Shown one piece after another: positions 1 to 12,318 of a stretch of DNA of 12,519 nt. The position numbers were made by a program, and so were the translations under genes. The notes below the pieces were generated by a model. The model was not told the DNA's origin and did not search any database. It was given only the letters and a program-made list of their open reading frames with translations. This stretch comes from Betaproteobacteria bacterium. Lineage in GTDB: Bacteria; Pseudomonadota; Gammaproteobacteria; Burkholderiales; SG8-41. Within the stretch, counting starts at the first letter, position 1; every line of letters starts with the position of its first letter. The DNA is taken from assembly GCA_025356695.1 (NCBI GenBank), contig JANXSE010000432.1:1-12519 (forward strand), written 5' to 3'.

Positions 1-1935
1 GAATGCGACTGGTCGAAAGTCACCACCGAATACCCGACACCGGGACAGAGCGTCGCGCGCAAACGCGTGTGGGGCGATTTCTCGACCGGCGGCAGCCGCG
101 GCATCCGCGAGTCGCATGAATACGTGCGCCGCGGCGGCGCCGTTGCGCGCACGATGCTGATCCAGGCCGCAGCCGACGAATGGAAAGTGCCGGCAGTCGA
201 ATGCAGTGCCGCCAACAGCATCATCACGCACAGCACGAGCGGCCGCACCACGACTTACGGCAAGGTCGCCGAAGCCGCCGCAAAAATCGTACAGCCGAAA
301 GACGTGCCGCTGAAGGACCCGAAGGACTGGAAACTGATCGGCAAGTCGGTCCACCGCCTGGACACCATCGATAAAGTCACGGGGAAAATGATTTACACCG
401 CAGACTTTACGCTGCCCGGCATGCTGCTGGCAGCGATCAAGGAATGCCCGGTGTTCGGCGGCAAGATCAAGAGCTTCGATGCGGCAAAAATCTCCGGCAT
501 GCGCGGCATCAAACACGTATTGCAGGTGGGCGACTCCGCAGTGGCCGTCGTCGCCGACAGCTGGTGGCGCGCCAAGACGGCGCTCGATGCGCTGCCGATC
601 GTGTGGGATGAAGGCGCCAACGGCAAGGTTTCAAGCGCCGGCCTCGCTGACATGCTGAAAGAAGGTCTCGGTGCCGAGCAGGCCTTCGTTGGAAACAAAA
701 ATGGTGACGCCAGGGCGGCGCTCTCCGGTGCCACGAAAAAGGTCGAGGCGGTCTACGCGCATCCCAACCTCAACCACGCAACCATGGAGCCGATGAACAC
801 CGTCGCGCGCTACACCGCGGAGCGCTGCGAAGTCTGGCTCGGCACGCAGAACGGCGAAGCGTCGTTCGCCGCCGTGCTCGCCGCGTCCGGACTGCCGGCC
901 GACAAGTGCGAGGTTTACAAGCTGATGCTCGGCAGCGGCTTCGGCCGGCGCGGCGCCTTTCAGGATTACGTGCGCCAGGCCGTGCTGATCGCCAAGCAGA
1001 TTCCCGGCGTGCCAGTGAAACTGCAGTGGTCGCGCGAAGAAGACATGACGCAGGGCCGCTACCATCCGCTGACCCAATGCAAACTGACCGGCGGCTTCGA
1101 TGCCAGCAACAATCTGACCGCACTGCACGTGCGCCTCTCCGGCCAGTCGATTCTCAGTTCGGTGCGTCCCGAAGCGCTGGTCAACGGCATGGACCCGGCG
1201 GCATTCCAGGGCATGGCGCCGTCAGGCGAGGCTGAATTCGGCTACAGCGCCATTCCCAACCTGCTGGTCGATCACGCGATGCGCAACACGCACGTACCGC
1301 CGGGTTTCTGGCGCGGCGTCAATATCAACCAGAACGCGATCTACATGGAATGCTTCATGGATGAACTTGCGCAGGCCGCAGGACAGGACCCGCTCGAGTT
1401 CCGTCGCAAGCTGATGGCGAAGAATCCGAAGCACCTCGCGGTGCTAAATGCGGCGGCCGAACGCGCCGGCTGGGGTAAGCCGGCGCCGAAAGGCGTGTTC
1501 CGCGGGCTGGCGCAAATGAAAGGCTATAACAGCTTCGTTGCCGCCTGCGCCGAGGTCTCGGTCACCGGCGGCAACAAGATCAAGGTGCATCGCATCGTCG
1601 CCGCCACCGACTGCGGCTATGCAGTCAATCCGTCGCTGATCGAACGGCAGATCGCCGGGTCTTTCGTCTATGGACTGTCGGCGTTGTTCTATCAGGAGTG
1701 CACGGTCAAAAACGGCCGCATCGAGCAGACCAACTTCCACAACTATCAGTCGATGCGCATCGCGCAGATGCCGAAGGTCGAAGCGATCGTCATGCCCTCG
1801 GGTGGATTCTGGGGCGGTGTCGGCGAGCCGACCATCTGCGTGGCAGCCCCCGCGGTACTCAATGCCTACGCCGCGGCGACCGGCAAGCGCATCCGCAGCT
1901 TCCCGCTGAAGAACCACGGCATCACGCTGGTGTAG
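1..1935 (+). CDS. Xanthine dehydrogenase-family molybdopterin-binding subunit (IorB-like), 5' truncated
   Basis: This is the large, molybdenum-cofactor-binding subunit of an aldehyde or N-heterocycle hydroxylase, closest in appearance to isoquinoline 1-oxidoreductase beta subunits. The frame is open from base 1, and the upstream residues ECDWSKVTTEY belong to the same family, so the gene starts outside the window; the GTG at 67 is not the true start. The visible part is 644 residues; IorB-type proteins are usually somewhat over 700. Family landmarks are STGGSRGIRESHEYVRRGG near the N-terminus, LKDPKDWKLIGK, the HATMEP block around base 780, LGSGFGRRG (usually LGGGFGRRG) around 930-955, and GGVGEP near the C-terminus, whose Glu at 1825-1827 matches the catalytic base of the xanthine oxidase family. 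The partner 2Fe-2S subunit and electron acceptor should lie upstream. The substrate cannot be told from sequence. The stop codon shares one base with the soxY GTG. Confidence 0.93.
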   Translation, partial: ECDWSKVTTEYPTPGQSVARKRVWGDFSTGGSRGIRESHEYVRRGGAVARTMLIQAAADEWKVPAVECSAANSIITHSTSGRTTTYGKVAEAAAKIVQPKDVPLKDPKDWKLIGKSVHRLDTIDKVTGKMIYTADFTLPGMLLAAIKECPVFGGKIKSFDAAKISGMRGIKHVLQVGDSAVAVVADSWWRAKTALDALPIVWDEGANGKVSSAGLADMLKEGLGAEQAFVGNKNGDARAALSGATKKVEAVYAHPNLNHATMEPMNTVARYTAERCEVWLGTQNGEASFAAVLAASGLPADKCEVYKLMLGSGFGRRGAFQDYVRQAVLIAKQIPGVPVKLQWSREEDMTQGRYHPLTQCKLTGGFDASNNLTALHVRLSGQSILSSVRPEALVNGMDPAAFQGMAPSGEAEFGYSAIPNLLVDHAMRNTHVPPGFWRGVNINQNAIYMECFMDELAQAAGQDPLEFRRKLMAKNPKHLAVLNAAAERAGWGKPAPKGVFRGLAQMKGYNSFVAACAEVSVTGGNKIKVHRIVAATDCGYAVNPSLIERQIAGSFVYGLSALFYQECTVKNGRIEQTNFHNYQSMRIAQMPKVEAIVMPSGGFWGGVGEPTICVAAPAVLNAYAAATGKRIRSFPLKNHGITLV

Positions 1936-2399
1936 TGCGCGCGCGCCGGCGATTTCTTTCCGCAGCGGGCGGGTTCGCGGCGGCAGCCATGCTGCCGCCG
2001 CGCGCTTTTGCGCAACTTACGCGCACACCGCTGAACAATATGCCGGAGGTCATCAAGCGGATGACCGGCGGCGCCGTCATCAACCACGGCCGCGTTAAAC
2101 TGGATGTGCCGCCGCTGGTTGAGAACGGCCATCTGGTGCCGCTCGGCGTCACCGTCGAGAGCCCGATGACAGCGACCGATTACGTCCGCGAAATCCACGT
2201 CTTCACGGAAAAAAATCCGCTGCCCGAAATGATCAGTTTTTATCTCGGGCCGCGCGCCGGCCGCGCTTCGATCGCCACGCGCGTGCGCCTGGCCGATACC
2301 GAAAACGTGGTGGCGATTGCGCGCATGAGCGACGGTTCGTACTGGTCTGACACAGCGTTCGTCATCGTCACGCTGGCCGCCTGCCTTGAGGAACTCTGA
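1935..2399 (+). CDS. soxY: Thiosulfate-oxidation carrier protein SoxY, variant C-terminus
   Basis: SoxY is the periplasmic subunit of the SoxYZ carrier; sulfur intermediates are held on a cysteine in a flexible C-terminal arm. I chose the GTG at 1935 (shared G in TAGTG) because it keeps a full Tat signal: ARRRFLS followed by an Ala-rich stretch and RAFA before Gln27. No clear ribosome-binding site is seen, which fits coupling to the upstream gene. The mature part matches SoxY: LDVPPLVENG, VTVESPMTATDYV, IHVFTEKNPLPE, VRLADTENVVAIARMSDGSY. Length is 154 residues, normal for the family. The odd part is the end: canonical SoxY ends in VTIGGCGG or similar, while this one ends VTLAACLEEL. Cys150 is the only cysteine in the protein, so the carrier thiol is kept while the flanking glycines are lost. 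The GAGGA spanning the two Glu codons of that tail (2388-2392) also serves as the Shine-Dalgarno for soxZ. Confidence 0.9.
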   Translation: MRARRRFLSAAGGFAAAAMLPPRAFAQLTRTPLNNMPEVIKRMTGGAVINHGRVKLDVPPLVENGHLVPLGVTVESPMTATDYVREIHVFTEKNPLPEMISFYLGPRAGRASIATRVRLADTENVVAIARMSDGSYWSDTAFVIVTLAACLEEL

Positions 2400-2719
2400 T
2401 GGCGGTCGCGCGCATTAACGTACCGAAGACCGCGCAGCGCGGCGAGATCATCGAGATCCGCACGCTGATCAGCCACATCATGGAGAACGGTTTCCGCCGC
2501 ACCACTCTCGGCGTGCCGCTGCCGCGCGACATCATCACCGGGTTCACCTGCACCTACAACGGCATCGAGGTTTGCCGCGCGACACTCTATCCTTCGATCG
2601 CGGCAAATCCGTTTTTGTCATTCACCACGATTGCCACCGAGTCCGGCACGCTGGTGTTCAACTGGCACGGCGACAACGGCTTCAACCACACGGAAACCGC
2701 GCGCATCACCATCGAGTAA
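2399..2719 (+). CDS. soxZ: Thiosulfate-oxidation carrier protein SoxZ
   Basis: SoxZ is the small beta-sandwich partner of SoxY, co-exported or bound in the periplasm. At 106 residues it has normal family length and no signal peptide, as expected because SoxZ normally travels with Tat-exported SoxY. Recognisable blocks are INVPKTAQRGEIIEIRTLISH at the N-terminus, FTCTYNGIEV in the middle, and AANPFLSFTTIATESGTLVF followed by a short strand ending ARITIE. The ATG overlaps the soxY stop by one base (TGATG), with GAGGA six bases upstream, so the two are co-translated in equal amounts. The gene ends six bases before the stop of the convergent epimerase gene. Confidence 0.93.
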   Translation: MAVARINVPKTAQRGEIIEIRTLISHIMENGFRRTTLGVPLPRDIITGFTCTYNGIEVCRATLYPSIAANPFLSFTTIATESGTLVFNWHGDNGFNHTETARITIE

Positions 2720-4861: not shown

Positions 4862-5428
4862 ATGCCGCTGCAAAATTCGGCCACGCACTACGGCGCGGTC
4901 ACACGCTTTCTGCACTGGGCCGTCTTTCTGTTGTTCGCGCATCAATACCTGAGCGGCAACTTCATGACCCGGATCGAAGGGGAACACACCCTTTTCGGGC
5001 TGACACAGGGCAATTATTACGATTGGCATAAATCCATCGGCGTCGTTCTCCTGCTGCTTGCCGTATTGCGCATACTCTGGCGCAAGCTGACACCGCTGCC
5101 GGACTGGGCGCCGGCACTGTCGCCGGCCGAACGCGCCATCTCGCACTGGAATGAAACCCTGCTCTACGCCTGCATGATTCTGATGCCGGTAAGCGGTTAT
5201 CTGTTTGTCATGGCAGGCGACTACGGCATCAAGCTGTTCGGACTGCACGACCTAGTCAATCCGATCGGCAAGCAGGCATGGCTGGCCGACGTTGCACGCG
5301 TTGCGCACATCCTGATTTCCTATGTGATCGTGATCGTCGCATCGTGGCATATTGGTCTCGGCCTCAAGCACCACCTCTTCGAGCGCAACGGTTTCCTGCG
5401 CCGGATGCTGCCCTTCTGCAAACCCTGA
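4862..5428 (+). CDS. Cytochrome b561 family protein (CybB-like)
   Basis: This is a small inner-membrane di-heme cytochrome b of 188 residues, related to E. coli CybB. It has four hydrophobic helices (about 17-30, 57-72, 99-117, 147-165). Four candidate heme-ligand histidines fall in the helices: His18 (RFLHW), His56 (DWHKS), His149 (VAHI) and His163 (SWHIG). The 14-residue spacing of the last pair matches my memory of CybB. Members of the family pass electrons from the quinone pool to periplasmic acceptors. The ATG at 4862 follows GGGGGA by seven bases. No clear partner gene is adjacent: the Bug-type gene upstream is separated by about 100 bases and the methyltransferase gene downstream is convergent. 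The N-terminal TRFLHW and C-terminal basic tail suggest the standard in-in topology. Confidence 0.92.
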   Translation: MPLQNSATHYGAVTRFLHWAVFLLFAHQYLSGNFMTRIEGEHTLFGLTQGNYYDWHKSIGVVLLLLAVLRILWRKLTPLPDWAPALSPAERAISHWNETLLYACMILMPVSGYLFVMAGDYGIKLFGLHDLVNPIGKQAWLADVARVAHILISYVIVIVASWHIGLGLKHHLFERNGFLRRMLPFCKP

Positions 5429-5460: not shown

Positions 5461-6339
5461 CTAGCGCGCCGGCGGCAGGGCCAGCAAATCCAGATGGCCG
5501 ATGGTAAGCGACAGCACTCCCGCATCAATTTGCGCAGCGCGCTGCGCCAGCCAATCGGCATAACACGCCGCGACTGAAGGGTCCGTTTCAAGCGCCACTG
5601 CAACCGACTCTTCCGCCATGCGCCGCAGCATTTCGCGATGCGCCACGCCGATTTGCCAATCGCTGCGCGCGGTGCTTACCGTGTATCCGGCCGCCGCCAG
5701 CCGCTTCGCGACATGACTCGTGGCCGCGGAACCCAGCGCGCGACCGAATCCTTTGTCGCCGGTCTGGTGACGCGCGAATGCTTTCTCGATCGGCGCATCG
5801 GCAGCGTGGGCCGGCTGCCATGCGCGCCGGCCATCGACCGTGAGTGTCGCGAACAACGGCCGTTGCGCACGAACCAGCTGATCGCAAAACGTCTCGACCC
5901 AGTCCGCCGAAACAAGATCCAGAAAAGCCGTCGTCGTCACGGCGTCGCAGGTCGTGAAATCCAGTTGAGACAGTGCCTGCGCCAGATCCAGCGTCTGTGC
6001 CTGTGCGCGCCACGTGGTCGCACCGCTGTGCACTGTGACACCCGCGTCGGGTTTCTCACAACGCCAACCTTCGCGCAGCGCCCAGCGCATGATCTCCGCG
6101 GATTGTGCGCCCAGCAATGCCGGATCGTGGTCCACCAGCGACCACGCCTGATCACCGTTCAGCAGCGGTGCGAGCACCCTGAAATTGGCGCCGCTGCCTG
6201 CGGCCAGGTCGATGATGCGCAACGTTCCCGCTTGACGCAGTTTGAGCGCGACGGCAAACCGGCGCACGAGGTCGCGATCGCGGGCCGCGGTGTCGAAGGG
6301 CTCGCGCTGGCGCAGCCAATCCGCACTAAAGCCGTTCAT
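5461..6339 (-). CDS. Class I SAM-dependent methyltransferase
   Basis: This 292-residue soluble protein has a Rossmann-type methyltransferase fold. Motif I is IIDLAAGSGANFR (about residues 42-54) and the motif II acidic residue sits in LVDHDPALL (Asp70). A later block, TTCDAVTTTAFLDLVSADWV, fits motif IV and the following helix. The start at 6339 is chosen because ATG overlaps the upstream glycosyltransferase stop by four bases (ATGA) and the family-like N-terminus FSADWLRQREPFDTAARD begins there; longer in-frame extensions encode low-complexity Arg/Cys-rich sequence antisense in style. It is the last gene of the minus-strand operon and presumably methylates a product of the reductase, dehydrogenase, T-fold and GT4 genes before it. 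The acceptor atom and substrate are unknown. Confidence 0.85.
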   Translation of the reverse strand: MNGFSADWLRQREPFDTAARDRDLVRRFAVALKLRQAGTLRIIDLAAGSGANFRVLAPLLNGDQAWSLVDHDPALLGAQSAEIMRWALREGWRCEKPDAGVTVHSGATTWRAQAQTLDLAQALSQLDFTTCDAVTTTAFLDLVSADWVETFCDQLVRAQRPLFATLTVDGRRAWQPAHAADAPIEKAFARHQTGDKGFGRALGSAATSHVAKRLAAAGYTVSTARSDWQIGVAHREMLRRMAEESVAVALETDPSVAACYADWLAQRAAQIDAGVLSLTIGHLDLLALPPAR

Positions 6340-7385
6340 GCGGCGAGCCGGTCCAGCGCGTTGGCCCAGCGGGTGACTGCCGTTGGCCAATCCGGCAACG
6401 TCGCGGCCGCAAGCGCGGCACCGGCGGCAAGCCGCGCACGCAGATTTGCGTCTGTCATGGCGCGTCTTAACGCATCGCACAGGGCGGCAGTATCGCCGGG
6501 CGGCACGAGCAGCGACGCGTCTGCCGACACGGTATCGGGAATCGCGCCGGCGGTGGTGGCAATCACGGGCAGACCGTGCGCCAGCGCTTCAGCATAGACC
6601 ATGCCGTAACCTTCTTCATAGGAAGGCAGCACAAACACGTCGGCACTCCGGTAGGCCGCCGACAGACTGGCCGGCGCACATTCACCGGCGAGCGCAATGC
6701 GGTCGCCGAGATTTTGTGCGGCGATGGCATGGCGCAATGCGGCCACCGTAGCGGTATCGCGTTCGAGACTGCCTATGCAGATGAGGCGCCAATCGAGATC
6801 GCGCAGGCTGGCCAGTGCGTTGATCAGCAGCACATGACCTTTGCGCGGCGTCACGGTGCCGACCGCCAGCAGCGCGAGCGGCCCCGCGCTTTTGGCTGCA
6901 CGTAACATTGCGGGTTTGGCGGTGCCCGGCATCACAATCTCGATGCGATCGGCGGCGACCCCGATTGCCTTGACGGCGCGCGCGGTATGCGCGCTCGGAC
7001 AGATCACGCCACGCAGCAGCGGCCAGAGCCGCGCTTCGAGCACGGCGTAGACGTGTGCCACGTCCGCAAGCAAACCGGTTTCGCGCGACAGCGGATGATG
7101 GATAAAGCCGATCAGTTGCAGGCGTCGCGCTTCCGCGGCCAGGCAATCGGCAAATGCCGGCAGCGCGAGACCGTCGATGACCGCAGTGCTGCCGTCCGGC
7201 AAGTTCGCAAGTGCCGTCGCGGCGGCACTGCGGGCGAGGTCATCAGCGGCGGGGAAGCGCCCGGCCAGTTCGATCACGTTGACGGTACGGCCCGCGGCAC
7301 GCAGCCCTTCCACAATCATGCGATCGAAAAGATAGCCGCCGGTGAGTTGATCGAGCGGTCCCGGCACCAGGAACGCCAGCGCCAT
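6336..7385 (-). CDS. Family 4 glycosyltransferase (GT-B fold)
   Basis: This is a cytosolic, retaining-type glycosyltransferase of 349 residues. The N-terminal domain starts ALAFLVPGPLDQLTGGY, where the Gly-Gly loop (16-17) normally contacts the acceptor or donor phosphate. The C-terminal domain has VGTVTPRKGH (about 175-184) and the GT4 EX7E motif, Glu258 to Glu266, in SYEEGYGMVYAEALAHG, followed by GLPVIATTAGAIPD. The ATG at 7385 overlaps the TAA of the upstream T-fold gene (TAATG); a GTG ten codons earlier is possible but would lie inside that gene. It overlaps the methyltransferase gene by four bases, so all three are coupled. In this context it probably glycosylates the small molecule made by the operon, although a role next to the OpgH-like glucan synthase cannot be excluded. 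Confidence 0.88.
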   Translation of the reverse strand: MALAFLVPGPLDQLTGGYLFDRMIVEGLRAAGRTVNVIELAGRFPAADDLARSAAATALANLPDGSTAVIDGLALPAFADCLAAEARRLQLIGFIHHPLSRETGLLADVAHVYAVLEARLWPLLRGVICPSAHTARAVKAIGVAADRIEIVMPGTAKPAMLRAAKSAGPLALLAVGTVTPRKGHVLLINALASLRDLDWRLICIGSLERDTATVAALRHAIAAQNLGDRIALAGECAPASLSAAYRSADVFVLPSYEEGYGMVYAEALAHGLPVIATTAGAIPDTVSADASLLVPPGDTAALCDALRRAMTDANLRARLAAGAALAAATLPDWPTAVTRWANALDRLAA

Positions 7386-7789
7386 TAACGCAACGCGCCT
7401 TCGAAGCTCGCCCACGCCACCGGCGATTCGCGCAGCACGATGCGCATCGAATCGAGTGTCCCGGCGGTGCCGGCGCCGAGCGCCCCGGCGACGATGCGGG
7501 TTTTCATGCGGTGGAAGATTTCACCGGCCATGAATTCGGTGGTGGTGTTTTTTCCGCTCAGCGCCGGCACCTCGTCGAGATTTTTGAAATTCAGTTCACT
7601 CAGCACTTCGCGCAGCGCTTTGAGCGCGAGGCCGATATCGCACACCAGGCCGTTGTTATCAAGTTCCGCGCGACGAAACTCGACTTCCACGCCATAGGTG
7701 GCGCCATGCAATTGCTGCGCCGGGCCGAATATCTCGCCCGTAAAGCTGTGCGCAATCATGATGTGGTCGGAAACGGCGAGCGCATACAT
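7385..7789 (-). CDS. 6-pyruvoyl-tetrahydropterin synthase/QueD-like T-fold protein, atypical active site
   Basis: This 134-residue protein belongs by pattern to the PTPS/6-carboxytetrahydropterin synthase family: IAHSFTGEIFGPAQQLHGATYGVEVEF, then LDEVPAL, NTTTEFMA and a C-terminal RESPVAW. Compared from memory with E. coli QueD, His14 and His28 (two zinc ligands) and Glu121 (substrate anchor) are kept. The catalytic Cys in CxxLHGH is Ala24, the second His of HGH is Ala30, and the Asp-His pair aligns with Asn67-Phe68. It is therefore unlikely to do the standard PTPS or QueD reaction, although I recall relatives with HGAT instead of HGHx, suggesting a distinct subfamily. The start at 7789 is fixed by a strong AGGAG at 7799-7803. 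It sits 16 bases after the dehydrogenase gene and overlaps the GT4 start. Confidence 0.85.
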   Translation of the reverse strand: MYALAVSDHIMIAHSFTGEIFGPAQQLHGATYGVEVEFRRAELDNNGLVCDIGLALKALREVLSELNFKNLDEVPALSGKNTTTEFMAGEIFHRMKTRIVAGALGAGTAGTLDSMRIVLRESPVAWASFEGALR

Positions 7790-7798
7790 GGCGATATT

Positions 7799-7803
7799 CT
7801 CCT
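7799..7803 (-). promoter_or_regulatory. Ribosome-binding site of the PTPS-like gene
   Basis: AGGAG read on the minus strand, nine bases before the ATG at 7789, in the 16-base gap after the dehydrogenase stop. It is the clearest Shine-Dalgarno in the operon and decides the start against an in-frame extension back to 7999. Confidence 0.8.
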
Positions 7804-7805
7804 GT

Positions 7806-8774
7806 TCAGCAATAGGTGATGACGTGGCAGAGCGTGCCGTCGGGGGCGCCGGCCAGCCGCGCCATGGTCGCGGGCAGTTCTTCGAAAGCGCTCGTGCCCG
7901 TGAGCAACGCGTCGAACAGCGGATCGGCCAGCAACTCCAGCGCAAGCGCAAGACGGCGGCGATGGTTCCAGCGCGCGCGCTGTGCCGTGGCCACCGCACC
8001 GACCTGCGACGAGCGCAGCGTCAGGCGTCGCGTGTGAAATGATTCTCCGAGCGGGGCAACCACCATGCGGTCGCCGTACCAGCTCATCTCAAGCACCGTC
8101 GCTTCGAATCCGGCCAGACGCAACGCAGTTGTCAGGCCCTCGGGATTGCCGCTGACATGAATGACGAGATCGGCATTTTCGCTCGCCCGTTCCGGCGCGG
8201 CAAAAGCGCAGCCCAGACGCGCGGCAATGGCCGCGCGGCGCGGATCCGTATCAATCAATTCGACACGAACTCCGGGCAGGCGCGCCGCCAGCGCGGCAAC
8301 CATGCAACCAACCACACCCGCACCGATCACCGCAATACGGTCGCCGAGACGCGGCGCCACATCCCACAGGCCGTTGACGGCGGTTTCCATATTCGCGGCG
8401 AGCACGCCGCGCGTTTCGGGCACGTCATCCGGCAGGCGAATCACGGCATCGGCCGGCACGACGTAAACATCCTGATGCGGATGCAGACAGAACACGCGTT
8501 GCCCGAGCAGTTCTGCAGGCCCCGCCTCAATGCGACCGACCGAGGCATAACCATATTTCACCGGTGCAGGAAATGCGCCTTCCTGAAAAGGGCAACGCAT
8601 GGCCTCGTATTGACTGGCGGGTACATGTCCGCTGAAAACCAGGCTTTCGGTGCCGCGACTGATGCCGCTGCACAACGCGCGCACCCGCACTTCACCCGTG
8701 CCGGGCACGGGCAACGCCGCCTCGCGAATTTCACCGGCGCCCGCACCGACAGTCCAAAAGGCGCGGCTACGCAT
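7806..8774 (-). CDS. Zinc-type alcohol dehydrogenase-like oxidoreductase (MDR superfamily), atypical zinc site
   Basis: This 322-residue medium-chain dehydrogenase-like protein has an N-terminal GroES-like domain and a Rossmann domain with VIGAGVVGCMVA (about 149-160) and an acidic end of beta-2 (VELIDTD). Cys35 in CSGISRGTE matches the first catalytic zinc ligand of the family. The GHE motif is replaced by KYGYASVG (about 73-80), and the four-cysteine structural zinc lobe is absent. The pattern resembles the sugar-dehydrogenase/BchC-like branch of the superfamily, so activity on a polyol or pteridine side chain is more likely than on simple alcohols; this is inference. ATG at 8774 is preferred: it lies four bases after the RibD-like stop with GTGAG upstream. 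A GTG at 8795 would add seven residues and overlap that gene. The next gene follows 16 bases later. Confidence 0.85.
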   Translation of the reverse strand: MRSRAFWTVGAGAGEIREAALPVPGTGEVRVRALCSGISRGTESLVFSGHVPASQYEAMRCPFQEGAFPAPVKYGYASVGRIEAGPAELLGQRVFCLHPHQDVYVVPADAVIRLPDDVPETRGVLAANMETAVNGLWDVAPRLGDRIAVIGAGVVGCMVAALAARLPGVRVELIDTDPRRAAIAARLGCAFAAPERASENADLVIHVSGNPEGLTTALRLAGFEATVLEMSWYGDRMVVAPLGESFHTRRLTLRSSQVGAVATAQRARWNHRRRLALALELLADPLFDALLTGTSAFEELPATMARLAGAPDGTLCHVITYC

Positions 8775-8778
8775 GGCA

Positions 8779-9573
8779 TTACTCACTGAAGTCACACTCG
8801 ATCATGATGTCCTCGCCGAGTTCGAAACGGCGCGTGCGCGGACGCAGGCCGCGGCGCAAATCCGTGATTTCCGGCAACAGTACGCTCGGTCGTCCAGAAC
8901 CCAGGATGAGCGGGGCCACCGTGATCTGCAAACGGTCGAGCGCGCCGGCCGCGAGAAAACGCGATACCGTAATGCCGCCGCCTTCGATCAACAGGCGGTG
9001 CAATCCACGCTGCGCCAGAATGCGGCGGATCTCATGCGGATCAAGTTCCGCTCCGCTGCGCGGCACCGGAACGATCTTGGCATTGCCCAGCATCTTGTCC
9101 TTGCACTCGCCATCCGCTGCCGTAAGCAGCAGGGTCGGCGCGGCGCCGTCCGTGAATACGCGCTGGCTGCCGTCAAGCCGGCGCTCGGGATCGATGATCA
9201 CGCGCAGCGGATTGGCACCTTCGCAGCGCCGCACTGTCAATTGCGGATCGTCGTGCAGTACGGTGTTGACGCCGACGATCACCGCATCAACCAGCGCGCG
9301 CATGCGATGCGTATGCAACAGGTCGGCGGGCCCGCTGATCCACCGCGAAACGCCGCTGTTCGTGGCAATGCGGCCGTCGAGACTTTGCGCCAAATGGCCA
9401 ACCGCAAATGTGCCGTTTCTGCCGGCATCGCACAGCGGCCCGTACAAATCGTGCAACGGCGAACGCTCCAGCGGCGCAGCAGCACTGATGCGGCGCGCCA
9501 ACACGGCCTGCCAGGCGGCATCATGCTCTGCAGCCGGTTCTCCGCGGTTGGCTTCGGTGCTTTTTTCGGTCAT
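8779..9573 (-). CDS. Stand-alone RibD C-terminal domain protein (pyrimidine/pteridine reductase-like)
   Basis: This 264-residue protein has the DHFR-like fold of the riboflavin-pathway reductase. After a variable N-terminal region of about 55 residues comes GTFAVGHLAQSLDGRIAT, then WISGPADLLHTHRMRALVDAVIVGVNTVLHDDPQLTVR, the usual RibD_C core for NADPH and substrate phosphate binding. It continues with LIEGGGITVSRFLAAGALDR and PLILGSGRPS. The deaminase half of RibD is absent. In riboflavin synthesis the homologous domain reduces a ribosylaminopyrimidinone phosphate; here the substrate is unknown and the neighbours point to a specialised pathway. The ATG at 9573 is preferred because AAGGAC lies seven bases upstream; an in-frame start at 9624 would overlap the preceding gene's end. 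The dehydrogenase gene starts four bases after its TAA. Confidence 0.87.
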   Translation of the reverse strand: MTEKSTEANRGEPAAEHDAAWQAVLARRISAAAPLERSPLHDLYGPLCDAGRNGTFAVGHLAQSLDGRIATNSGVSRWISGPADLLHTHRMRALVDAVIVGVNTVLHDDPQLTVRRCEGANPLRVIIDPERRLDGSQRVFTDGAAPTLLLTAADGECKDKMLGNAKIVPVPRSGAELDPHEIRRILAQRGLHRLLIEGGGITVSRFLAAGALDRLQITVAPLILGSGRPSVLLPEITDLRRGLRPRTRRFELGEDIMIECDFSE

Positions 9574-9601: not shown

Positions 9602-10540
9602 TTACCGCGATGCAGCGGCATCAAACGCGTCGAAGACGAGATCCGGCGCGCTCAAATTGTGCGTCGATTGCGCAATGCGCCCGAAACGGGCGCTGGTCGT
9701 GCGGAAACGGCCGAATTCGAGTATCGGCGCAGAAACCGGTGCAAGAGATGTGCCTGCCCAGCGTGCGACCGCCACGTCCGCCTGCGCCGGTGTAACGAAC
9801 ATCGAACGCAGCGCGGCAAACGGCCGCCCGGCGGGCAATGGCGGCTCCAGCGTCAACGCCAGCGTGACCCCGGCGCTAGTGGCGGCGGCGACGCGCAACA
9901 CACCGCGCGTATCGTCGCGAAAAACAAGATTGAATGTCAGCGTCGCCGGATCGAAGACAATGCTGCGAATGACCACAAACGGACGCGTTGATTCTTCAAT
10001 CGGCCCGAACAAAAACGAACTGCCGTAAGCACTATCAATCAGTGCAGGCGGTGGCAGCGGTTTCACGCGCCAATAGCCGTCCGCCGGATAGACCACCAAG
10101 ATTTCGATATCACGTTGCGGCCCGCGTTTGAGCAATTGCACCAGATGCAGGCCCCGCTCAAGGGTGCCGCCGACAAAAAAGTCCACCACATCGGGCCGCC
10201 AGTTCGTCGGAAAAACATGTCCGACAAGCCGTATGTCGGCATCTTCGTAGAGCGTCAGCGTGCGCGGTGCAAAAGAAAAATTCGGGTCCGGCGACATATC
10301 GCAGGCGGCGAAATCGGGTGCCGTGCTGTCGTCCATGACCGCGGCGATGTAGGGCGGATGTTCGGCTCTGATGCGGAACGACGCAATGCCGTTGCCCAGC
10401 ACTTTGACATAGACGTTGTCTTCTTCGGCACAACGTGTCGCGCGGCTGGCATTCACGAAGTCCACCGCGACTGCGGCACAGGCGCACTGCGCCAACAAAA
10501 AACCGAGGCATGCACAGGCCGCCAATACGCTGCGCATCAT
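9602..10540 (-). CDS. Exported protein of unknown function, coupled to the mdoH-like gene
   Basis: I do not recognise a family. The 312-residue product begins with a clear export signal (MMRSVLAACACLGFLLAQCACAA). It could be cleaved after ACAA by signal peptidase I, or processed as a lipoprotein at Cys19 in the LAQC sequence; the first reading is slightly preferred. The rest has no membrane helix and alternates short hydrophobic strands with polar turns (for example VVIRSIVFDPATLTFNLVFRDD and VLRVAAATSAGVTLALTLEP), suggesting a beta-rich periplasmic protein. Its ATG overlaps the stop of the glucan synthase gene by four bases (ATGA), which argues for joint function, perhaps in periplasmic glucan handling as OpgG does elsewhere. 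However, it is shorter than OpgG/OpgD and shows no resemblance I can see. The RibD-like gene starts 28 bases downstream. Confidence 0.8.
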   Translation of the reverse strand: MMRSVLAACACLGFLLAQCACAAVAVDFVNASRATRCAEEDNVYVKVLGNGIASFRIRAEHPPYIAAVMDDSTAPDFAACDMSPDPNFSFAPRTLTLYEDADIRLVGHVFPTNWRPDVVDFFVGGTLERGLHLVQLLKRGPQRDIEILVVYPADGYWRVKPLPPPALIDSAYGSSFLFGPIEESTRPFVVIRSIVFDPATLTFNLVFRDDTRGVLRVAAATSAGVTLALTLEPPLPAGRPFAALRSMFVTPAQADVAVARWAGTSLAPVSAPILEFGRFRTTSARFGRIAQSTHNLSAPDLVFDAFDAAASR

Positions 10541-12318
10541 TTGTTCGCAGCCGCCGCCGGAAGTTCGTTGGCGAATGGCGCGAACAGGCTGGTGTCCGCA
10601 GCGCCTTCGAGCCGTCCCGATTCTTCAGGCACCCGACACAATCCCGCGGCGCCCAGCAGGCGGCCCAGCGGCGGATGTGCGCTCAGCATGGCAAGCGGAA
10701 TGGCGCCGGCGAGTCCGAGCACAAACGGCGCCCAAAACCAGACTGCACCGGGCGCCACGCGCCAGAACCACCACGCAAAAACAATTCCCAGCAGCGTTTG
10801 CGGCCACAGGCGGTGCGCCGCCATCACCAGGGGCACACCCTCGGCGTCGCGTTGCTGCGAAGTCCAGCCGACCTGCCGGCCGAACGGCAGGCCGAGCAGA
10901 AAAATCGTCACCGCCACCGCGGACACCGGCGCAATCAGCAGCGTCAGCAAAAATTCGAGAGCAGCGCCGAGTACGATGCGAATGACGCCGCCATAGGCAC
11001 GCCGTAATTCGGCGCGTAGCAGCACATCGGCCAACGTGGCGAGCTTGGGCGCCAGTCCCATCGCCAGCGTGACGATAAACAGAGTAATGCCCAGGTCCGC
11101 ACGAAACGGCAACTGACGAATCAATCCCAACAACATGAACGCGAGCCACGCCGGCGCGCTCAGATACATGGCGATGGCGAGCACGAGCTGGCAGCGGCTG
11201 ACCGTAGGCAGGCCGAGCAGCGTGAGGAAATGGAAATACTGCATATTGCCCTGGCACCAGCGCAGATCGCGGCGGATGAACTCCACCAGGCTCGGCGGAT
11301 TTTCTTCCCAACTGCCTTCTTCATCGGGCAGCACCCGCACTTCAAAACCGGCGCGCCGCATCAGTACGGCTTCGAGCTGGTCGTGGCTTAACACGTGGCC
11401 GCCGAGTGGTGGTGCGCCGGGCAACACTGGCAGATGGCAATGCTCGATGAACGGCGCCAGACGCAGGATCGCGTTGTGTCCCCAATAGGGGCCGCAATCG
11501 CCCTGCCAGCTCGCCGCCCCCAGCGTGTAGGAACGCATGCCCAGCCGCATGCCAAACTGAAAAATGCGCGCGAAGGCGCTCGCACTCGGCAGACCGGTCA
11601 CCAGCGTTTGCAGAATGCCGATCCGCGGCTCGGCCTGCATGATGCGCACCAGGCGCAGCATGGCCGCCGGCGTCATCACGCTGTCGGCATCAAACACGAT
11701 GGCGAATTCATGCTGCCGCCCCCACTGCCCGCAGAAATCGCGGATATTGCCCGCCTTGAAGCCGCTGCTGAGTTGGCGCCGGCGATAGGTTATTTTCAGC
11801 GCGTCGCCGCAGCGCTGCGTCATCGCTGCGGCGACGCCTTCCTCTGCAACCGCAGCCGCGGCCTGATTGCTGTCGCTGAGAATGTAGAGATGAAACCAGC
11901 CCGCCTCGCCCGTGGCGATGAGGCCGTCGAGCATCCACTCAAGGTTGCGTAAAAGACGCGCGGTATTTTCGTTGCGGATGCAGATCAGCAGCGCCGTTTT
12001 GCAGGCAATCGGCGCGCCGCTGGACGCATGACGCCGATGCGGCGCCACCAGCGTCGCCGGGTCACGCGCAAAAATCATCAATGAGAAGCCGATCACCGCA
12101 TTCCAGAAGCCGATCGTCGTCCACGGCAGCGTCAACGCGAAGAACAGCAGCATGGCGATGCCGATCGCATCGGGTGTGGTGGTGAACAACGTGGCCGCCA
12201 TCAAAACCAGCAGCGCCACGGAACTGGCGAGCACGAGCGCGGCGAAACCGATGCGACGACTGCGCAATGTCAGGCCGCTGCGCGGCGGTTCCGGCGGGCT
12301 ATTCAACGTGGCGATCAT
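10537..12318 (-). CDS. mdoH: Short OpgH/MdoH-type glucans biosynthesis glucosyltransferase
   Basis: This 593-residue inner-membrane family 2 glycosyltransferase matches OpgH/MdoH, which polymerises glucose from UDP-glucose into osmoregulated periplasmic glucan. Two helices come first (about 23-45 and 52-83). The cytosolic catalytic domain has ILSDSNQ (Asp149), SGFKAGNIRDFCGQWG (185-200), FDADS (Asp210, Asp212), GPYWGHNAILRLAPFIEHC, PPLGGHVLSHDQLEA, EEGSWEENPPSLVEFIRRDLRWCQGN (ending near 358), and then C-terminal helices. The QxxRW position reads RRDLRW, so the Gln is not present. E. coli MdoH is roughly 850 residues; this short form lacks long N- and C-terminal extensions, like alphaproteobacterial versions I recall. 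The ATG at 12318 has only a weak ribosome-binding site. It heads the seven-gene minus-strand operon; no opgG is visible next to it. Confidence 0.9.
   Translation of the reverse strand: MIATLNSPPEPPRSGLTLRSRRIGFAALVLASSVALLVLMAATLFTTTPDAIGIAMLLFFALTLPWTTIGFWNAVIGFSLMIFARDPATLVAPHRRHASSGAPIACKTALLICIRNENTARLLRNLEWMLDGLIATGEAGWFHLYILSDSNQAAAAVAEEGVAAAMTQRCGDALKITYRRRQLSSGFKAGNIRDFCGQWGRQHEFAIVFDADSVMTPAAMLRLVRIMQAEPRIGILQTLVTGLPSASAFARIFQFGMRLGMRSYTLGAASWQGDCGPYWGHNAILRLAPFIEHCHLPVLPGAPPLGGHVLSHDQLEAVLMRRAGFEVRVLPDEEGSWEENPPSLVEFIRRDLRWCQGNMQYFHFLTLLGLPTVSRCQLVLAIAMYLSAPAWLAFMLLGLIRQLPFRADLGITLFIVTLAMGLAPKLATLADVLLRAELRRAYGGVIRIVLGAALEFLLTLLIAPVSAVAVTIFLLGLPFGRQVGWTSQQRDAEGVPLVMAAHRLWPQTLLGIVFAWWFWRVAPGAVWFWAPFVLGLAGAIPLAMLSAHPPLGRLLGAAGLCRVPEESGRLEGAADTSLFAPFANELPAAAANK

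Follow-up and report, generated by a model that had tools for sequence, protein, structure and literature searches.

A widespread gene group around a PTPS-like protein without PTPS catalytic residues and its probable link to GTP-derived pyrimidines or pteridines

What is made by five tightly spaced genes that code for a stand-alone RibD_C reductase, an MDR-family dehydrogenase, a protein resembling 6-pyruvoyltetrahydropterin synthase (PTPS), a GT4-family glycosyltransferase and a protein with a methyltransferase fold? These genes lie on a 12,519-nucleotide stretch of DNA from a Betaproteobacteria bacterium (contig JANXSE010000432.1), which is referred to as a whole as the window. A first reading made from the letters alone (the sequence-only reading) had taken the five genes as a cluster for a tailored small molecule derived from GTP, perhaps a pterin glycoside. 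Here, we report that the linkage of the five genes is strongly conserved and that the PTPS-like protein lacks key catalytic residues in every locus analysed, and we conclude that this is a real, conserved biosynthetic gene group that probably acts on a GTP-derived pyrimidine or pteridine. The enzyme families are known, and their combination and its product are, to the extent that this could be judged, new; no published account of the cluster was found in the searchable literature, a scope that leaves most subscription-journal papers outside.

Conservation and layout of the gene group

The sequence-only reading had named rare co-occurrence of the five families as the observation that would count against it, and the families turned out to be linked. 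We drew 398 genomes evenly from the phylum to which the genome nearest to the window (G001) belongs. Those with a PTPS-like match above 190 bits were taken as carriers (n = 27), and four weak matches (49-53 bits) were excluded; in three of these four genomes (G010, G065, G093), the QueD model matches at the same place. Within about 10 kb around the PTPS-like gene (L100, L103 and L110 are shorter than 20 kb), the 27 neighbourhoods contain genes for the MDR protein (27), GT4 (26), the methyltransferase (25) and RibD_C (23), and all five core genes are present in 20 of 27. Further genes at these loci code for MdoH (13), a CDP-alcohol phosphatidyltransferase (12), GTP cyclohydrolase II (GCHII, 11), LPG_synthase_TM (11), cytochrome b561 (8), FkbM (8), creatininase (6), a sulfatase group (5), YceI (4) and the OpgG-like protein (4). 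The same profiles were applied to 20 canonical QueD loci of this phylum, picked by hand from 104 places matched by the QueD model, chiefly because they scored high and lay on long contigs, and with the neighbours not viewed. These controls came out close to zero, with single matches to RibD_C, GCHII (73 bits) and GT4 (weak, 47 bits), and none to MDR, the methyltransferase, MdoH or the phosphatidyltransferase.

A second set of 91 loci consists of the window, 10 of 20 plasmid matches and the best 80 of at least 587 confirmed genome loci, the 80 genome contigs being chosen by how closely they match the PTPS-like protein, and its counts come from profiles built from these same loci. Here, the PTPS-like gene (91) is accompanied by genes for MDR (89), GT4 (86), the methyltransferase (79) and RibD_C (64), with all five in 58 loci. 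The partners are the CDP-alcohol phosphatidyltransferase (60), LPG_synthase_TM (36), GCHII (32), creatininase (22) and MdoH (13), and the rarer ones two groups of membrane sulfatase-superfamily proteins (18 and 12), FkbM (15), YceI (14), cytochrome b561 (10) and the OpgG-like protein (5). Both sets together give 118 loci. Among the profiled genes, the MDR gene directly precedes the PTPS-like gene on the same strand in all 27 sampled loci and in 87 of the 91, and the order MDR-PTPS-GT4-methyltransferase is found in 24/27 and 74/91 loci. The exact order of the window, with RibD_C in front and on the same strand, occurs in one of the 27 (G001) and in 11 of the 91 loci; in relatives, RibD_C is often encoded on the opposite strand. 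Judged by their record titles, carriers belong to the Beta-, Gamma- and Alphaproteobacteria, the Actinomycetota, the Gemmatimonadota and the Acidobacteria, and include one Nannocystaceae bin. A phage origin was rejected, with 0 matches in 50,697 phage records.

In the window, seven co-directional genes run along the minus strand from 12318 to 5461, and mdoH and an OpgG-like gene lie upstream of the five-gene core. The extent of 5461..9573 given by the sequence-only reading is thus too short, as these two genes belong to the operon. The operon and the gene that converges with it are as follows:

10537..12318, minus strand: mdoH/opgH-like membrane glycosyltransferase (GT2), 593 amino acids, first gene of the operon (NCBIfam)
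9602..10540, minus strand: small OpgG-like exported all-beta protein, 312 amino acids, without a Pfam family (assigned by fold)
8779..9573, minus strand: RibD_C stand-alone pyrimidine-nucleotide reductase, 264 amino acids, without a deaminase domain (PF01872, E 5.8e-42)
7806..8774, minus strand: MDR-family dehydrogenase, 322 amino acids, with a conserved GxGxxG and with KYGY instead of the usual zinc-site GHE
7385..7789, minus strand: PTPS-like T-fold protein, 134 amino acids (Pfam PF01242, E 2.4e-22)
6336..7385, minus strand: GT4-family glycosyltransferase, 349 amino acids (Pfam PF13692, E 2.7e-29)
5461..6339, minus strand: class I S-adenosylmethionine-dependent methyltransferase-fold protein, 292 amino acids, without a Pfam family (structure model)
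4862..5428, plus strand: cytochrome b561-type membrane protein, 188 amino acids, convergent with the operon (PF01292, E 4.9e-26)

The junctions within the core, in order a 4-base gap, a 16-base gap, a 1-base overlap and a 4-base overlap, match exactly what had been described for these five co-directional genes; further upstream, the OpgG-like gene overlaps mdoH by 4 bases and ends 28 bases before the downstream RibD_C gene. In G001, the stretch 5461-9573 is found at 90% DNA identity and in the same order, and the cytochrome b561 gene, the OpgG-like gene and mdoH flank the five genes in the same places as in the window (locus L103). Between the window and G001, dN/dS is 0.14-0.27 for the five core genes and 0.06-0.27 across all eight genes, and the five core genes are under purifying selection. 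The cytochrome b561 gene is associated with the operon and is not part of its transcript. At the edge of the window (67-2719, plus strand), a gene for the large subunit of a molybdopterin-binding oxidoreductase is followed by soxY and soxZ genes. Scans of the window with Rfam (gathering threshold) and for tRNAs gave no matches, and a promoter and terminator scan gave signals that were not above those of shuffled sequences.

The PTPS-like protein and the route from GTP

The closest solved relative of the PTPS-like protein is SCO6650 from Streptomyces coelicolor (3d7j, E 4e-39, nearly full length, same HGA motif), and the motifs DHxMIAHS and FGPAQxxHGAT of the SCO6650 subfamily are present in it. 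For comparison with canonical enzymes, we used 19 open reading frames from 18 of the 20 control loci, picked by a pattern that itself includes the Cys and HGH. The catalytic Cys, present in 19/19 canonical sequences, is replaced by Ala24 in 118/118 PTPS-like proteins; of the zinc site, H14 and H28 are kept, whereas the third His is Ala30 in all 118. At the position of the catalytic His (19/19 in canonical sequences), the PTPS-like proteins have Tyr (74), Phe (26), Leu (11) or Met (7) and never His, and the catalytic Asp (canonical 18/19) is Asn in 90 and Asp in 11 of 118. His14, His28, Asp51, Glu85 and Glu121 are retained in 118/118, and Glu121 corresponds to the Glu that binds the pterin ring in PTPS enzymes. 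Due to the loss of the catalytic residues and of the third zinc His and the retention of Glu121, the protein can be expected to bind a pterin or a 2-amino-4-oxo-pyrimidine without performing PTPS chemistry. SCO6650 itself is reportedly a protein without zinc and without PTPS activity. An ordinary QueD/PTPS function was rejected on the basis of the lost active-site residues and the unrelated neighbourhood. PTPS-like genes of the same subfamily also lie on Streptomyces megaplasmids near MEKHLA and cupin genes (L012, 12001-12426; L013, 12001-12399), where the inactive T-fold has another kind of genetic setting.

If the protein is not a PTPS, how does the pathway leave GTP? That the window contains no GTP cyclohydrolase, as had been noted before, is borne out. 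In tblastn searches with the housekeeping enzymes of G001, whose identity was confirmed by Pfam, a GCHII domain was found in 43/118 loci, the same number as obtained with profiles (32 + 11), and cyclohydrolase I, RibB, RibE and RibH were each found in 0/118. As GCHII is linked to the cluster and the other four are not, the branch seems to leave GTP via the riboflavin-type first step and to stop short of riboflavin; a full riboflavin route and a cyclohydrolase I route were rejected on this linkage. Elsewhere in its genome, G001 encodes cyclohydrolase I, RibBA, a riboflavin operon that includes a further RibD_C and a QueD-like protein outside that operon's description (88.7 bits, just under the model cut-off), and the copies in the cluster are therefore extra.

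The GCHII proteins of the clusters also differ at the Tyr of the RAYALQD motif, which we take to be equivalent in numbering and role to Tyr105 of the E. coli enzyme: it is Met in 9/32 and His in 3/32 proteins. Such a change reportedly makes S. coelicolor SCO6655 stop at the formyl compound. Creatininase genes are present in 12/12 loci with a Met or His variant and in 5/20 loci with Tyr (Fisher p 3e-5, for dependent lineages, all 12 being actinobacterial). The creatininase-family protein BrbF of Sinorhizobium meliloti deformylates the formyl intermediate, as shown biochemically (PMC9478397), and by analogy the creatininase-family proteins of the clusters are consistent with a formamidase role.

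The remaining core proteins were assigned by family and fold. PF01872 is the sole Pfam family of the RibD_C protein, its nearest solved structures, 6p8c and 2azn, are named as diaminopyrimidinone and aminouracil reductases, and it does not reach the cut-offs of the curated NCBIfam RibD/reductase models. Pfam support for the MDR protein is weak, with ADH_zinc_N below its cut-off, and a BchC-type identity was rejected, as this nearest NCBIfam model scores 46.5 bits against a cut-off of 291. The protein has its own conserved residues across 115 sequences (GxGxxG and KYGY), and KYGY stands in place of GHE, the usual zinc motif of MDR proteins. The best PDB chain for GT4 is 6kih (Tll1590), followed by 3c4q/3c48, with the PimB-type 3oka also among the matches. 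The methyltransferase-like gene has no Pfam or NCBIfam match, and the structure model of its product (mean pLDDT 96.3) has a class I methyltransferase fold.

Export, anchoring and the proposed product

The mdoH and OpgG-like genes upstream of the core, together with the phosphatidyltransferase, flippase-like and MdoH genes of the relatives, suggest that the product is exported or anchored in the membrane. The MdoH protein passes the NCBIfam models NF003958 (522.7 bits, cut-off 419) and NF003962 (464.8, cut-off 328) and scores best with NF003963 (679.8), which is below its cut-off of 884; seven MdoH models in all stay below theirs. It shares 35% identity with E. coli OpgH across 561 alignment columns, and it is the sole MdoH match found in G001 (86% complete), in which Pfam MdoG also has no match. 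The OpgG-like protein shows no significant match to OpgG by sequence, and Foldseek returned no match to its model at E<=0.001; the relation appears only with VIA-align on the same model, and the 312-residue protein is possibly a minimal OpgG. Of 7997 candidates that were scored, 1871 belong to its family at E<=1e-3, and C37/C80 are invariant in 34 sequences.

Across the 91 loci, the phosphatidyltransferase and MdoH rarely occur together (side by side in 2, the transferase without MdoH in 58, MdoH without the transferase in 11 and neither in 20; p 8e-5, with relatedness ignored), and the catalytic motif of the transferase is intact in 59/59 sequences tested. LPG_synthase_TM, which is a flippase-like family, is found in 11/12 loci with the phosphatidyltransferase vs 0/15 others in the sampled set and in 35/60 vs 1/31 in the larger set, and cytochrome b561 in 7/13 MdoH loci vs 1/14 others and in 7/13 vs 3/78, respectively; in L014, L015, L017, L019 and L034, the cytochrome b561 gene adjoins mdoH within the cluster. 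From which genes replace which, we infer that the two gene sets may be alternative routes by which the same kind of product is placed outside the cytoplasm, either on a lipid or on a periplasmic glucan.

YceI-family genes are present in L021, L026, L031, L061 and further loci. E. coli also has yceI and yceJ as a pair, which, together with the YceI and cytochrome b561 genes of the clusters, hints that a periplasmic redox or lipid-carrier partner may be common to both. Membrane proteins of the sulfatase superfamily (groups C7 and Sulf) are encoded in L025, L026, L061, L082 and other clusters. For the group found in 18/91 loci, the tested member has no Pfam or NCBIfam match, and the two groups are homologous by profile comparison. 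An LtaS/EptA-like role for these proteins would be a guess.

Our preferred reading, which we hold tentatively, is that the seven-gene operon makes a conjugate in which a ribityl-pyrimidine or pterin derived from GTP is glycosylated and methylated, and that this conjugate finally resides at the periplasmic face of the inner membrane. The steps are assigned by enzyme family and are to be taken as predictions. GCHII, encoded elsewhere in the lineage of the window, would open GTP to 2,5-diamino-6-ribosylamino-pyrimidinone phosphate. Some relatives may have a cyclohydrolase II variant that goes no further than the formyl compound, with a formamidase of the creatininase family completing the step. 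The stand-alone RibD_C would then reduce the ribosyl to a ribityl group, with the 2-amino group probably kept because the protein has no deaminase domain. The T-fold protein could bind the 2-amino-4-oxo-pyrimidine via its conserved Glu and, together with the MDR protein, carry out a redox step on the ring or side chain, after which GT4 and the methyltransferase would add a sugar and a methyl group. In the lineage of the window, MdoH and the OpgG-like protein may extend and export the glycoside, and in other lineages the CDP-alcohol phosphatidyltransferase, often with the flippase-like protein, may anchor the product as a phospholipid.

A more far-reaching form of this proposal, which we consider doubtful, is that the clusters make undescribed extracytoplasmic pterin-like conjugates, in which a reduced ribityl-pyrimidine or dihydropterin head is attached, depending on the lineage, to a phospholipid or to a glucan of the osmoregulated periplasmic glucan (OPG) type and possibly acts as an electron carrier for cytochrome b561. 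The T-fold would then perform a new reaction that does without the PTPS zinc site: after oxidation of the ribityl chain at C2' by the MDR protein, ring closure with the 5-amino group would take place in the T-fold pocket, so that a dihydropterin could form independently of GTP cyclohydrolase I. The cyclohydrolase I of G001 argues against a need for such a reaction.

Several observations weigh against the preferred reading. Neither GCHII nor creatininase is encoded in the window, both occur in a minority of the loci (43/118, and 22/91 and 6/27, respectively), and the supply step for the lineage of the window is taken from G001, which is 86% complete. For the two creatininases tested, MftE is the best-scoring model, with scores that stay below its cut-off, and the archaeal ArfB model gives 36 bits (cut-off 180) for one of them and no match for the other. 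At the two Streptomyces plasmid loci described above, the PTPS-like gene stands without any of its partner genes. On the export side, the proposed relation of the 312-residue protein to OpgG comes from the fold of a model, and neither MdoH nor the phosphatidyltransferase is present in 20/91 and 6/27 loci. In the 27 sampled loci, the separation of the two genes is not significant when all MdoH matches are counted (both 4, transferase only 8, MdoH only 9, neither 6; p 0.25). The nine MdoH matches at loci without the transferase score 681-1005 bits and the four with it 346-633 bits, and with a 600-bit MdoH cut, which was chosen after the scores were seen, the counts become 1, 11, 9 and 6 (p 0.014); the p-values for this and the other co-occurrences ignore relatedness.

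It might be asked whether the export genes have anything to do with the core. The product of the MdoH/OpgG-like pair could be a periplasmic glucan of the ordinary kind, and that of the five genes a soluble ribityl-pyrimidine, either a cofactor or an antimetabolite, with no relation to it; the two sets would then simply share an operon in this lineage. We regard this as unlikely, though it deserves to be taken seriously. With MdoH in 13/27 and 13/91 loci, the core often occurs without it, and the lack of significant exclusion among the 27 loci when all MdoH matches are counted points the same way. However, MdoH, the OpgG-like protein and RibD_C are encoded in one direction and tightly packed, with the 4-base overlap and the 28 bases given above, the cluster MdoH is the only one found in a genome that has no Pfam MdoG match, and in the 91-locus set the phosphatidyltransferase is present in 58/78 loci without MdoH.

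The two remaining explanations concern the chemistry. A soluble pterin glycoside of the cyanopterin or limipterin type, formed from GTP via cyclohydrolase I and PTPS and then reduced, glycosylated and methylated, would agree with the PTPS fold and its retained pterin-binding Glu, with the cyclohydrolase I gene elsewhere in G001 and with GT4, as this family also contains the solved tetrahydrobiopterin glucosyltransferase 5zer, to which the match is weak (E 1.6e-4). Yet all 118 proteins have lost the third zinc His as well as the catalytic Cys and His, the Asp of the catalytic pair is kept in 11, cyclohydrolase I is found at 0/118 and GCHII at 43/118 loci, and no pterin route known to us includes RibD_C; we consider this explanation very unlikely. 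Of the proposal made by the sequence-only reading, the conserved group with its tailoring enzymes and its probable GTP-derived pyrimidine or pteridine substrate hold up, and the ordinary, PTPS-made pterin glycoside is not supported. A branch of riboflavin or flavin-like metabolism (toxoflavin, roseoflavin, deazaflavin) is similarly hard to sustain and appears to us the most improbable of these explanations. GCHII and RibD_C are families of the riboflavin pathway, and the combination of GCHII, RibD and a methyltransferase resembles the toxoflavin operon, but RibB, RibE and RibH are absent from all 118 loci, the riboflavin operon of G001 is separate and has its own RibD_C, and we know of no place for the PTPS-like protein, MDR or GT4 in flavin-type routes.

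The cluster spans several bacterial phyla and 27/398 sampled genomes of the phylum of G001, without a described product that we could find. It gives SCO6650, a protein with a solved structure, a context, a substrate class and partner enzymes, and turns the function of a PTPS without an active site into a concrete assay question. Should the product be anchored to a lipid or a glucan, as our preferred reading has it, it would add to the known membrane and periplasmic compounds a new type, the synthesis of which from GTP begins with riboflavin-type steps.

Comparison with known systems

The cluster shares elements with several known systems. With QueD and 6-pyruvoyltetrahydropterin synthase, the PTPS-like protein has in common the T-fold family PF01242 and the substrate-binding Glu, whereas it lacks the catalytic Cys, the third zinc His and the catalytic His and has an unrelated gene neighbourhood. 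At the level of the protein, it belongs to the same subfamily as SCO6650, which is listed as uncharacterized in the PDB, and several Streptomyces loci of our sets (among them L070, L073, L089 and L093) carry MDR, GT4, methyltransferase, GCHII and creatininase genes around the PTPS-like gene. The archaeal-type first steps of riboflavin synthesis and BrbF are paralleled in some clusters (among them L025, L026, L042 and L061) by GCHII, a creatininase-family protein and a stand-alone RibD_C, but the clusters have no RibB, RibE or RibH and add the PTPS-like protein, MDR, GT4, the methyltransferase and export-type genes.

As in the synthesis of OPGs by OpgG and OpgH, a member of the MdoH family adjoins a protein with a predicted OpgG fold. 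This OpgG-like protein differs in having only 312 amino acids and no Pfam MdoG match, and its gene is joined to a small-molecule operon of the nucleotide type. Finally, the phosphatidylinositol mannoside pathway uses a CDP-alcohol transferase and a GT4 enzyme, and the two are likewise encoded together in most of the 91 loci. In contrast to that pathway, the window contains no such transferase, and the acceptor in the clusters would be a ribityl compound.

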